DNA of 64,000 bases from Thermosediminibacter litoriperuensis (GTDB lineage: Bacteria; Bacillota; Thermosediminibacteria; Thermosediminibacterales; Thermosediminibacteraceae). Under the pieces are notes generated by a model that was not told where the DNA came from, did not search any database, and worked only from the letters and a program-made list of their open reading frames with translations. A program made the position numbers and the translations under genes. Below, piece after piece: positions 900 through 4,969 of this stretch (positions are counted from its first letter, which is position 1; each line of letters begins with the position of its first letter). The stretch lies in NCBI RefSeq assembly GCF_008124715.1, contig NZ_VNHO01000007.1, positions 1 to 64,000 of the forward strand. The letters run 5' to 3'.

Positions 900-3038
900 A
901 TGACAACCGGAAAAATCCTGGCAAAATATGAATACCAGCCCGCAAAAATCGAAAAAGGTTACGCCAACCAGACCCTGTATATCAATCTGTCCGATAGGAC
1001 AATTAAGGCAAAACCGGTTACGGAACAGATGAAGCAAATTTTTACCGGAGGAAGGGGTTTCGGCCTGTGGTATCTCTGGAATGCGGTTTCGGGAGACACC
1101 AAGTGGAATGACCCTGAAAACGAGATAATAATCGCCGGCGGTCCCATATGCGGTATTACCCAGTATCCAGGGTCCGGTAAAGCAGCGGTGGTGACCCTTT
1201 CTCCTTTAACGGGATGCCCGATCGACAACAATGTAGGCGGCTACTTTGCGCCTTTGTTGAAATTTTCCGGGTGGGATGCACTGGAAATACAGGGTAAGGC
1301 GGATAAAGACGTGATAATTTTCATCGACGGCAATAAAGGGCTGGTCACGATAGAAGAGGCTGACGAAGGGCATGACGACACCCATCTGATAGCGGAAGAG
1401 CTTACTGAAAAGTACGCCGATTCCGAAGAGGACAAGAGGAACATCTCCGTTGTCTCCTCCGGTAGGGGTGCGGAAAACACCCTGATAGGGATACTCAACG
1501 TATCCTTCTACGATGTCAAGAGAAAAGCTGTAAGGGTGAAACAGGCTGGAAGAGGCGGTTCCGGCACCGTTTTCAGGGATAAGAAAATAAAAGCGATCAT
1601 AGTCAAATACAAGGGGGTAACCGGCGACTCCAATAACCCCGCCGATAAGGAAAAAATAATCAATGCAGCGATCAGGCTGCACAGGGAGATATTCGAGCTG
1701 GATAAACTGCAGAATAGGATGAGGGAAGTCGGAACCGCTCACCTGGTAGGAATTATGAACGATTATGACCTGCTGCCCGTAATGAACTTCCAGTATGGTT
1801 CGCACCCGGATGCGGTAAAAATCACTTCCGAAGTATTTCGGGAGAAGTATTTTACGCAGAATGTGCCCGATAACTGCTGGCACGGCTGTTCGCTTTCGTG
1901 CGCAAAAGCGGTCGACAATTACGAGGTGAAAACTGGGCCGTACAAAGGACAGAAGGTATGCGTGGACGCGGCTGAATACGAGACTATAGCCGCTGTTGCT
2001 TCCAACTGCGGCATTTTCGATCCCGAATACGTTATTGAAGCCAACTTCTACTGCGATACCTACGGTCTTGACACTATATCCTTTGGAAACATCGTTGGGT
2101 TTGCTATGGAATGTTACGAGAGGGGAATAATAAATAAAGAGATTACCGGCGGGCTCGAACTCAAATTTGGCAATGCCGAAGCAGCGCTGGAGCTTCTGCA
2201 CCAGATGGGCCGAGGGGAGGGTTTCGGAGAAATAGCCGGTCAGGGCGTAAAGCGCCTCAGGGAATACATCATTGAGAAAACCGGCGCCGATCCTGCGTTC
2301 CTGAGGGATATCAGTATGGAAGTAAAAGGCCTCGAAGTATCCATGTACGTGAGCAAGGAATCCCTCGCCCAGCAGGGAGGTTATGCCTTCGCCAATAAAG
2401 GGCCCCAGCACGACGAAGCCTGGCTGATATTCATGGACATGGTGAACAAACAGATACCAACCTTTGAGGATAAAGCGGAAGCTCTTCACTACTTCCCGGT
2501 TTTCCGCACCTGGTTCAGCCTGCAGGGTCTGTGTAAACTGCCGTGGAACGATATAATACCTGCAGATAACGCCATAACTAACGAGCCGCACAAGATTCCG
2601 GCCCACGTCCAGAATTACGTAGATATCTTTACCGGTGTAACAGGTAAAAACATAACGAGGGAAGAGCTTTTACTCCAGTCGGAAAGGGTATTTAATTTCC
2701 AGAGGATCTTCAACCTCAAGATGGGACGCGGCACCAGAGAATATGATAGGCCTCCGTTCCGGCTTATGGGCCCGGCAACAAAGGAAGAATACGAATCCAG
2801 GGCTGAGAGATACGACAAGCAGTTAAAGGAACTTGGATACGATATCGAGGGTAAGACCACGGAAGAAAAAATGACCATGTTAAGACAATACAGGGAGAGC
2901 CAGTTTGAAAAGCTCGTCGATGCCGTTTACAAGCGCCGCGGTTGGGATAAAAACGGTGTTCCAACCCTGGAGACCGTAAAAAAACTTGGTATCGATTTTC
3001 CCGATGTGGTAGAATTAATTAGCAGATATCGGGAGTAG
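900..3038 (+). CDS. aor: Tungsten-type aldehyde ferredoxin oxidoreductase
   Basis: The 712-residue protein belongs to the AOR family, which oxidises aldehydes to acids (or reduces acids) with ferredoxin, using a tungsto- or molybdo-bispterin and one [4Fe-4S] cluster. The N-terminal pterin-binding domain shows the typical GGRGFG, SPLTG and NNVGGYFAPLLKFSGWDAL segments. The cluster cysteines are seen as CWHGCSLSC in mid-protein and a late Cys in QGLCKLPW. The start is ATG 900, preceded by AGGGGG; upstream in-frame starts lie inside the ferredoxin gene. It is longer than the roughly 600-residue archaeal enzymes. Neighbouring polyferredoxin, ThiS/MoaD-like and hydrogenase-like genes suggest a redox operon. 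Metal choice and substrate cannot be read from the sequence. Confidence 0.93.
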   Translation: MTTGKILAKYEYQPAKIEKGYANQTLYINLSDRTIKAKPVTEQMKQIFTGGRGFGLWYLWNAVSGDTKWNDPENEIIIAGGPICGITQYPGSGKAAVVTLSPLTGCPIDNNVGGYFAPLLKFSGWDALEIQGKADKDVIIFIDGNKGLVTIEEADEGHDDTHLIAEELTEKYADSEEDKRNISVVSSGRGAENTLIGILNVSFYDVKRKAVRVKQAGRGGSGTVFRDKKIKAIIVKYKGVTGDSNNPADKEKIINAAIRLHREIFELDKLQNRMREVGTAHLVGIMNDYDLLPVMNFQYGSHPDAVKITSEVFREKYFTQNVPDNCWHGCSLSCAKAVDNYEVKTGPYKGQKVCVDAAEYETIAAVASNCGIFDPEYVIEANFYCDTYGLDTISFGNIVGFAMECYERGIINKEITGGLELKFGNAEAALELLHQMGRGEGFGEIAGQGVKRLREYIIEKTGADPAFLRDISMEVKGLEVSMYVSKESLAQQGGYAFANKGPQHDEAWLIFMDMVNKQIPTFEDKAEALHYFPVFRTWFSLQGLCKLPWNDIIPADNAITNEPHKIPAHVQNYVDIFTGVTGKNITREELLLQSERVFNFQRIFNLKMGRGTREYDRPPFRLMGPATKEEYESRAERYDKQLKELGYDIEGKTTEEKMTMLRQYRESQFEKLVDAVYKRRGWDKNGVPTLETVKKLGIDFPDVVELISRYRE

Positions 3039-3071: not shown

Positions 3072-3272
3072 GTGATCAAGGTCAACAAGGAAGATATGGA
3101 TTATGTGGACGGCATGACCATCCAGGATATCCTGAAAATAAGAAAATATTCTCATACTATGATTACGGTAATAGTAAACGGCCAGGTTGTGCCAAAGGAC
3201 AGCTATCCCACATACAGGGTAAAAGATGGAGACGTAATAAACGTAATTCACATGATGAGCGGTGGATGCTGA
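3072..3272 (+). CDS. ThiS/MoaD-like sulfur-carrier protein ending Gly-Gly-Cys
   Basis: This 66-residue beta-grasp protein has the ThiS/MoaD signature (VNGQVVP, a Tyr-x-Val-Lys-Asp-Gly-Asp segment and VIHMMSGG at the end). Family members are adenylated and thiocarboxylated on a C-terminal Gly-Gly and donate sulfur to thiamine or molybdopterin; copies beside AOR genes presumably serve the tungstopterin cofactor. Here one extra cysteine follows the Gly-Gly. GTG 3072 is chosen as start because AGGGGGGC sits about 9 bases upstream and the protein then begins V-I-K-V-N as relatives do; TTG 3048 is an alternative. It lies 33 bases after AOR. Confidence 0.8.
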   Translation: MIKVNKEDMDYVDGMTIQDILKIRKYSHTMITVIVNGQVVPKDSYPTYRVKDGDVINVIHMMSGGC

Positions 3273-3317
3273 AACAGACTGTCTCCTCTTATAATGATCC
3301 TATAGGGGGTAACGGCA

Positions 3318-3611
3318 GTGAAGGCCGATATATCCGGTTGGGCAAAGGATTATGTGAAAAAGCACGGAGGAGTAATGTTCATCGAAAAACGCCTCAATAT
3401 TCACGGGTGATGAAACGCCTTTTACGCCCCATCAGGTTTGATGGGCAAGCCCGAGAATGAAGAAGATTTCGTGCTATATACCGTTGACGACGACATAAAG
3501 GTGTATATTGATAAAAAAATACTCGAAGCACTGGACTCCGGTGAAAGAGTATTAAAATTCGTGATTCCAGAGTACGGCTGGCATTATCTCACCCTTATAG
3601 AAGTGCCGTGA
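3318..3611 (+). CDS. Candidate selenoprotein with tandem in-frame TGA codons (97 residues)
   Basis: From GTG 3318, with AGGGGGT 8 bases upstream, one frame runs to TGA 3609 and is interrupted only by adjacent TGA codons at 3408-3410 and 3411-3413. Both flanks look protein-coding: 30 residues before (a lysine-rich segment ending RLNIHG) and 65 after (NAFYAPSGLMGKP, later IKVYIDKKILEAL and YGWHYLTLIEVP). If TGA is read as selenocysteine the product has a U-U pair, matching my recollection of a small (seleno)protein family of about 95 residues with a Cys-Cys or Cys/Sec motif, often near AOR genes; I could not verify this. A hairpin at 3426-3446 has the features of a bacterial SECIS. The function is unknown; a vicinal Cys/Sec pair suggests redox or metal chemistry tied to AOR. 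A pseudogene with two stop mutations is the alternative. Confidence 0.7.
3426..3446 (+). promoter_or_regulatory. SECIS-like hairpin downstream of the tandem TGA codons
   Basis: Bases 3428-3434 pair with 3439-3445, and 3426 with 3446 after one bulged C, leaving a GGTT loop. If the closing A-U pair opens, the loop is AGGUUU, close to the AGGUCU loop of the Escherichia coli fdhF element. There are 21 bases between the second TGA and the GG (24 from the first), inside the accepted range for bacterial SelB recognition. Confidence 0.6.
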
Positions 3612-3612
3612 T

Positions 3613-3648
3613 TAACTTCAGCCGACGGACGTCCGTCGGCTGAAGTTA
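3613..3648. repeat. 36-bp perfect palindrome, probable terminator
   Basis: The two 18-base arms are exactly complementary about the centre 3630/3631 (the arm begins TAACTTCAGCCGACGGAC). As RNA it would form a very strong hairpin between the candidate selenoprotein and the hydrogenase-like gene. Only a weak TTAAAAT tract follows, so it could be a terminator, an RNA-stabilising hairpin or a protein-binding palindrome. Confidence 0.75.
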
Positions 3649-3682: not shown

Positions 3683-4969
3683 TTGAGGGAAGATATTATC
3701 AAACTGCGGCGGAAGATCTACCGGCTGGTCGCCGAACACGCCAGAACTCTTGACAACCTTCAGGATGTATATACTGCGGTCATTGAATCTATAGGCAATG
3801 AGATAAGTCGAAAAGAAGCGGAAGCGCGCGTGCGCGCGGCACTCGGCACTTTCGATAAGGGAGATATACCCGAAGTCGTGGATTTTCCCTTCATATCAAT
3901 AGTAGAAAAGGCCTGCGCCGGTCACGGGGAAAACTGCGGATGCAGGATTTCCTGTGAGCCGAAGGCTATAAAGGTGAACGAAGAGGGAAGGCCGTCTATA
4001 GACCTCGACGAGTGCATATCGTGCGGGCTCTGTATCGTGGCCTGCCCTGAAGGCGCCATTACCGATAAAACCGAAATTGCCCAGACGATAAATATGATAA
4101 AAAAGAACCGGAGGGTGTATGCGGTTGTGGCACCGGCCTTTGCGGGCCAGTTCGGCCCAAGGGTCAGTGAGGAGCAGGTTAAGACCGCCCTGCTGATGCT
4201 GGGTTTTTACGACGTGATCGAGGTTGCTCTGGGCGCCGATATGATCACCGTGAAAGAGGCGGAGGAATTTATTAGGCGTATGGACAGAGGCGATCAATTT
4301 ATGATAACTTCATGCTGCTGTCCTCCATTTGTTCGGCTGGCCAAGGGCTACAGGGGGAAAATTGAAGGCATGGTGTCCGATTCGGTTTCGCCTATGGTGG
4401 CTATAGCCAGGTTCATCAAAGCCGAAGACGAAGATGCAAAGGTGGTTTTTATCGGTCCCTGTATAGCCAAAAAGACCGAGGCCAAACTGCCCGAACTCAG
4501 GGATGCGGTTGACTGCGTTCTTACCTTTGAGGAACTGGCTGCCATGTTTGAAGGTTATAGAATCAACCTAGATGAGCTAGAGGTCAAGATGCCTGTGGCG
4601 GATGCGTCTCACGACGGCAGGATTTACGCTCATACGGGCGGTGTCACCACCGCCATCGTATCGAGCATAAAAAGAATCAGACCGGATATTGACGTAAAAG
4701 CCCGACAGGGCGACGGCATCAAAGAGTGCAAGCAGATCCTCGATGATATAGAAAGCGGCACCATTGGCGCCAACTTCGTCGAAGGTATGGCCTGTGTGGG
4801 AGGTTGCGTGGGCGGGCCTGGGGCATTAATCCCCCGCGAAGAGGGGGCGAAGGCTGTCGATGCGTTTGCGGCAAGGAGCGGTGTTAAGGAGGCCGTGGCG
4901 AACGACGCCGCCAGGATACTGTACAGCAAACATAAAGACAAAGTAAAATTGGAATCCCACCGCATGTAA
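3683..4969 (+). CDS. FeFe-hydrogenase H-domain protein with ferredoxin domain
   Basis: The 428-residue protein has an N-terminal helical part (1-70), a two-cluster ferredoxin region (CxCxxxC then CISCGLCIVACPEGA, about 80-130) and a hydrogenase large-subunit C-terminal domain. The three H-cluster signatures are present in diverged form: TSCCCPPF, GPCIAKKTEA and GMACVGGCVGG, so all four H-cluster cysteines can be accounted for. Family members evolve or oxidise H2, or sense it. There is no accessory subunit, PAS domain or maturase nearby. The start is TTG 3683, 8 bases after GAGGAGGT. Association with AOR suggests electron disposal from aldehyde oxidation, which is inference. Confidence 0.85.
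   Translation: MREDIIKLRRKIYRLVAEHARTLDNLQDVYTAVIESIGNEISRKEAEARVRAALGTFDKGDIPEVVDFPFISIVEKACAGHGENCGCRISCEPKAIKVNEEGRPSIDLDECISCGLCIVACPEGAITDKTEIAQTINMIKKNRRVYAVVAPAFAGQFGPRVSEEQVKTALLMLGFYDVIEVALGADMITVKEAEEFIRRMDRGDQFMITSCCCPPFVRLAKGYRGKIEGMVSDSVSPMVAIARFIKAEDEDAKVVFIGPCIAKKTEAKLPELRDAVDCVLTFEELAAMFEGYRINLDELEVKMPVADASHDGRIYAHTGGVTTAIVSSIKRIRPDIDVKARQGDGIKECKQILDDIESGTIGANFVEGMACVGGCVGGPGALIPREEGAKAVDAFAARSGVKEAVANDAARILYSKHKDKVKLESHRM

Follow-up and report, generated by a model that had tools for sequence, protein, structure and literature searches.

The tandem TGA gene and its operon

Near its start, the window (the whole stretch of 64,000 nucleotides analysed here) carries an aldehyde:ferredoxin oxidoreductase (AOR) operon with the following features.

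490-885, + strand: ferredoxin-like protein with four 4Fe-4S motifs, a conserved operon partner
900-3038, + strand: AOR family enzyme (AFOR_N, AFOR_C)
3072-3272, + strand: ThiS/MoaD-like sulfur carrier (TIGR01683, 57 bits)
3304-3310, + strand: Shine-Dalgarno-like AGGGGGT 5' of GTG 3318, read from the sequence
3318-3611, + strand: candidate UU selenoprotein gene, 97 residues (NF041239 match, and 22 homologues with tandem TGA)
3408-3410, + strand: first TGA (U31), equivalent by homology to the lone U in paralogues, and placed on IscA Cys35 by profile alignment
3411-3413, + strand: second TGA (U32), aligning with Cys or Ala of paralogues
3428-3445, + strand: SECIS-like hairpin with arms 3428-3434 and 3439-3445 and loop GGTT at 3435-3438; 97% of cells paired, four of seven pairs changed on both sides
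3613-3648, + strand: perfect 16-bp inverted repeat resembling a terminator (z -9.5), 3' of the UU gene and 5' of the hydrogenase-like gene
3683-4969, + strand: [FeFe]-hydrogenase-like protein (Fe_hyd_lg_C)

An earlier note on this DNA had described a 97-codon frame with its own ribosome site, AGGGGGT, lying between a ThiS/MoaD-like gene and a hydrogenase-like gene in an AOR operon and broken only by TGA TGA, and both the frame and its neighbours are as described. The frame runs on the plus strand from GTG 3318 to a TGA stop at 3609-3611, with TGA TGA at 3408-3413 as its only interruption, and its translation reads VKADISGWAKDYVKKHGGVMFIEKRLNIHG-UU-NAFYAPSGLMGKPENEEDFVLYTVDDDIKVYIDKKILEALDSGERVLKFVIPEYGWHYLTLIEVP, a 97-residue product in which the candidate selenocysteines are Sec31 and Sec32. 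The inverted repeat that follows may partially separate transcription of the UU gene from that of the hydrogenase-like gene.

The machinery that such a gene would depend on is complete, and all four of the sel genes that the earlier note had proposed looking for are present in the genome. The tRNA-Sec (selC), selB, and selA are clustered on contig C5, with selB identified by sequence and by its position beside selA, and selD lies on C2, where it too is a selenoprotein gene, carrying a single TGA in frame (L092, G000:C2:103087-104010). Because the Sec machinery is present and the UU gene itself ends in TGA, an alternative code in which TGA is read as Trp is unneeded, and was set aside.

Homologues, hairpin, and the probable decoding of both codons

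A family with a Cys-Cys or Cys/Sec motif, which the earlier note mentioned as occurring near AOR, does exist, and corresponds to NCBIfam NF041239, the ‘CC/Se motif family (seleno)protein’. With Cys written for Sec, the window protein scores 44.6 bits against this model (cut-off 40), while a six-frame genome search gives the window gene 32.7, under the same cut-off; 14 of 15 UU members match NF041239 at E<=0.01. Profile comparison places the UU dipeptide on the [U/C][C/A] pair of NF041239 paralogues (E 4e-17). Homologues with Cys at the U-U positions are found as U-C and C-C members, beside others with U-A. When 61 genomes were searched with NF041239, we recovered single-TGA members and a separate two-TGA group, in which every member carries precisely UU, in most cases with [NT]AFYAPSG after it. 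A search of named genomes with two peptide patterns added UU relatives in Thermovorax, Fervidicola, Alkaliphilus peptidifermentans, Anaerosolibacter, and several Anaerolineae, and all of these are UU as well. One of the two patterns, PSGL[VMT]GKPE, is independent of the codons at the UU site and could therefore have caught close Cys versions of the protein, yet this search found none. The exact hexanucleotide TGATGA occurs in 22 of 22 homologous genes from 21 genomes of two phyla, carried by relatives in the Thermosediminibacterales, other Bacillota, and Chloroflexota. In one member, a Cys stands directly 5' of the pair to give C-U-U (L034, 5886-5894, minus strand). We found no relatives in viral contigs or in plasmids, and an origin from either was rejected.

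The recurrence of the same pair in 21 genomes, cultured isolates among them, rules out sequencing error, which the earlier note had named as a possible source of the TGAs. In every comparison that allowed its calculation, dN/dS is 0.04 to 0.39 both before and after the TGA pair, and purifying selection acts on the two flanking coding segments. The deeper pairs are close to saturated at synonymous sites, and the persistence of TGATGA in every homologue against this background is more than chance would give.

The codons are followed by a putative SECIS whose loop the earlier note had placed 21 and 24 bases after the TGAs. This spacing is correct, with 24 nt between the first TGA and the loop and 21 nt between the second TGA and the loop, and the stem is best drawn as 3428-3434 pairing with 3439-3445, so that the hairpin starts 17 nt past the first UGA and 14 nt past the second. 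Across the UU homologues, 97.1% of cells in the 7-bp stem are paired and there are 8 double-sided changes. Covariation in the stem is 0.264 versus 0.139 in shuffled alignments, none of 500 shuffles reaches the observed score, and the stem also exceeds every slid control, in which 28-46% of cells are paired. Even in the most divergent member (L035), where the stem sequence is largely different and three extra bases lie between the UGAs and the hairpin, the arms still pair, and many single-U paralogues have a hairpin at a similar distance from U1. The loop in the UU clade is GGT(C/T), like that of E. coli fdhF, and the apex of the UU consensus, CAGGTCTG, is identical to that of the fdhF SECIS, a sequence that we confirmed in 5,388 genomes of the E. 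coli collection. The distances differ, as fdhF has 18 nt between its UGA and the GG, compared to 24 and 21 nt in the UU gene. Folding of this region, which the earlier note had suggested as a check, gave a divided answer. Comparative covariation supports the stem, but the single-sequence fold of the window hairpin is ordinary (z -1.0 and -0.4). The minimum-energy fold of the window region is a different hairpin, and an Rfam scan of that region gave no match to a SECIS family. The case for the proposed hairpin is thus a comparative one.

Could the TGAs simply be real stops, dividing a 30-residue upstream peptide from a downstream protein begun at TTG 3438 or ATG 3441, or else marking a decaying pseudogene? 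Stop and start codons commonly overlap as TGATG, and 27 nt past the second TGA there is an ATG in frame. However, the ATG within TGATGA opens a frame that ends within 17 codons, ATG 3441 has no ribosome site before it, and the peptide is under purifying selection on both sides of the TGAs. The pair is also invariant in 21 genomes, and the covarying hairpin overlaps the putative start. The stop/start overlap with an internal start is rejected on frame, selection, and covariation, and we regard real stops in any form as extremely improbable, the least probable of the readings weighed here.

When the U columns were masked for tree building, all 22 UU sequences fell on one side of a single branch (support 100/96), with the U-A, U-C, and C-C members all outside, although few columns enter this tree and its inner order is uncertain. 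The U-C members have TGA TGC at the site, one substitution from TGA TGA, and we therefore infer that the first Sec of the pair is ancestral and that the second needed only the change from TGC to TGA. This history bears on the suggestion that one UGA only is decoded as Sec while the other is suppressed with a different residue. The two codons differ by 3 nt in their spacing to the hairpin, and the spacing is ancestral for the first UGA, both of which would suit decoding of a single Sec. Against this, a dispensable second position would be expected to show Cys or other sense codons, yet it is TGA in 22 of 22 genes, and we consider single-Sec decoding very improbable.

Taken together, the invariant tandem TGA, the sel genes, and the Cys- and Sec-containing homologues support the candidate U-U selenoprotein that the earlier note proposed. 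The UU gene very probably encodes a bacterial selenoprotein in which consecutive UGAs are both decoded as Sec, with one hairpin serving both; that SelB decodes the two from this one hairpin is what sequence, phylogeny, selection, and covariation jointly suggest. A second Cys or Sec lies within 3 residues of U1 in 52 of 58 U-containing family members. This pattern suggests, with lower confidence, that the CC/Se motif family relies on paired chalcogens, both of which became selenium in the UU clade.

AOR and arsenic-resistance neighbourhoods

The gene order ferredoxin-AOR-ThiS-UU-hydrogenase is kept in eight genomes, in one of which (L040) the last two genes are separated by a transposase-like gene. 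G002 has a further, divergent UU gene (L035, 5721-5999) next to a different AOR, one that is only 31% identical. In L041, a NifU-like protein, recognised by its sequence, is encoded beside the UU gene. Of the 26 genomes of the class in the relatives set, 13 have this AOR, and 10 of those have the UU gene, compared with none of the 13 that lack it (Fisher p 5e-5, with kinship ignored). The association is not obligate. Five genomes have the AOR-ThiS operon core but no UU gene beside it (G009, G021, G022, G024, and one G016 copy), and UU is therefore not essential for AOR; in G022 and G024, a UU gene lies elsewhere in the genome, away from the core. Conversely, UU genes occur without a neighbouring AOR in several genomes. 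An obligate partnership with AOR is accordingly rejected.

In lineages beyond the Thermosediminibacterales, the company that UU genes keep is different. In Clostridia their neighbours are ArsD, ArsA, ArsR, ArsP_1, thioredoxin_3, and DUF2703, and four UU genes lie within arsenic-resistance clusters made up of ArsD, ArsA, ArsR, ArsP_1, and DUF2703 (L086, L087, L088, and L089 around 5995). In L086, a rhodanese gene precedes the UU gene. In Anaerolineae the neighbours are ArsP_1, thioredoxin_3, radical SAM/SPASM proteins, and in one case AOR. The radical SAM/SPASM genes are at L080 7952-9115, at L090 6305-7405, and, directly upstream of the UU gene, at L081 2234-3418. The UU clade of the family mentioned by the earlier note is therefore not confined to AOR, as several members belong to arsenic-resistance clusters.

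A predicted IscA-like scaffold, a possible role, and known selenoproteins

AlphaFold2 run on the UU alignment gives a model with pLDDT 90 that places the UU pair in a turn between predicted strands 19-29 and 33-42. The best Foldseek match in the PDB is E. coli IscA (probability 0.96, E 0.018, TM 0.45), and the other top structural matches are another IscA, AQ_1857, and SufA. Profile alignment with hhalign puts U1 on Cys35 of IscA, a conserved ligand (E 6e-5, probability 65%); of the IscA-family sequences used, the IscA one agreed with 1s98. The A-type carrier model PF01521 is matched weakly by 13 of 18 paralogues. The UU protein itself has no Pfam match to PF01521, no meaningful direct sequence match in the PDB, and no match to the HesB-like selenoprotein model TIGR01911 at E<=0.1. 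We suggest that the CC/Se motif family is likely a distant relative of the A-type (IscA/HesB) iron-sulfur carriers, though the relation to IscA is a weak one. PF01521 A-type carriers were found in none of the 26 genomes of the class in the relatives set, and the CC/Se family might fill part of the A-type carrier role there.

The UU protein may have a tungstopterin or redox role, as the earlier note hinted from the operon. Two selenols held together in a turn between two strands could form a vicinal diselenol/diselenide, and such a diselenol could reversibly bind or exchange a soft ligand: As(III) or another metalloid, a metal, or an atom of sulfur or selenium. The UU protein would then play an accessory part, as carrier or reductant; in one lineage it would serve the neighbouring AOR cofactor system, and in other lineages the handling of arsenic. 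The A-type-like scaffold, together with the AOR/ThiS and arsenic contexts, leads us to prefer this soft-ligand role, as carrier or reductant, to plain electron transfer. We hold it tentatively, at somewhat less than even confidence, on the evidence of gene neighbourhood, and it has close alternatives.

One of these is that the selenoprotein is a plain low-potential thiol/diselenide electron carrier, passing electrons between ferredoxin or thioredoxin and AOR and binding no metal or chalcogen. Its operon does contain a polyferredoxin, AOR, and an [FeFe]-hydrogenase-like protein, Thioredoxin_3 genes occur near members away from AOR, and many paralogues have UxxC or CxxU, which are classical redox motifs. 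The predicted fold is not that of thioredoxin, however, and the four Clostridia loci with arsenic genes and the IscA-like scaffold suggest ligand binding, so that this reading is possible but doubtful. Alternatively, the protein could act in maturation, transferring sulfur or selenium to tungstopterin or another cofactor alongside the ThiS-like carrier. The adjoining ThiS-like gene, the A-type-like fold, and the NifU-like and rhodanese neighbours in L041 and L086 would all be consistent with this, but the AOR-ThiS pairs that lack UU, and the several genomes with UU away from AOR, speak against it and make it slightly less probable again. Unlikelier still is a strict form of the favoured soft-ligand reading, in which a vicinal Sec-Sec is required as a metalloid-, tungsten-, or chalcogen-binding site, one SECIS directs two Sec, and the clade never has Cys at either position. 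If true, the required Sec-Sec ligand site would represent an active site of a novel type, common to AOR and arsenic systems.

In bacteria, decoding consecutive UGAs would require two deliveries of Sec-tRNA by SelB from a single hairpin, with the distance shifting by 3 nt, and the UU clade offers 22 natural templates for testing the mechanism and efficiency of double Sec decoding. An obligatory Sec-Sec pair would be a chemically extreme, strongly reducing site, and because it recurs next to AOR and arsenic genes, its role can be tested directly. Standard annotation likely misses or splits UU-type genes, and the clade may therefore be under-counted.

The family itself is already known. By HMM and profile, the UU protein belongs to NF041239 (Moor_selen_rel), with U1 and the hairpin at matching places, but that family is listed with the motif CxxU and one Sec in a 2026 review (PMC13188914), whereas in the UU clade two Sec stand side by side and a motif particular to the clade, PSGLMGKPE, is present. 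The table of 119 (sub)families in the same review contains no adjacent UU (PMC13188914). We found no report of adjacent Sec-Sec in bacteria in the literature searched, for which journal coverage was partial and the original Haft and Zhang family papers lay outside it, and the UU clade thus appears to be a distinct clade with an adjacent Sec pair that is unreported for bacteria.

The A-type carriers IscA, SufA, and HesB (PF01521) may share a similar fold with the predicted one, with U1 placed on IscA Cys35 by profile alignment, but their C-terminal Cys pair (CGCG) is absent from the alignments (A3 and A5), and only the UU protein has the adjacent Sec pair. The HesB-like selenoprotein (TIGR01911) is by name a selenoprotein of the A-type lineage, with the motif UxGP and one Sec. 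UxxU selenoproteins (the Prx-like thiol:disulfide oxidoreductase, NF041115, and FmdB-like proteins) resemble the UU protein in having two Sec in one active site, but they belong to other families and their Sec are three residues apart rather than adjacent. Eukaryotic selenoprotein genes, such as that of algal PDI_e, carry their SECIS elements in the 3' untranslated region. Algal PDI_e, with its GUGUU motif, was reported in 2020 as the first selenoprotein with consecutive Sec-Sec (PMC7539508), and shares this adjacency with the UU protein; it is a eukaryotic thioredoxin-fold protein, whereas the UU gene has a single in-frame hairpin directly after both codons.
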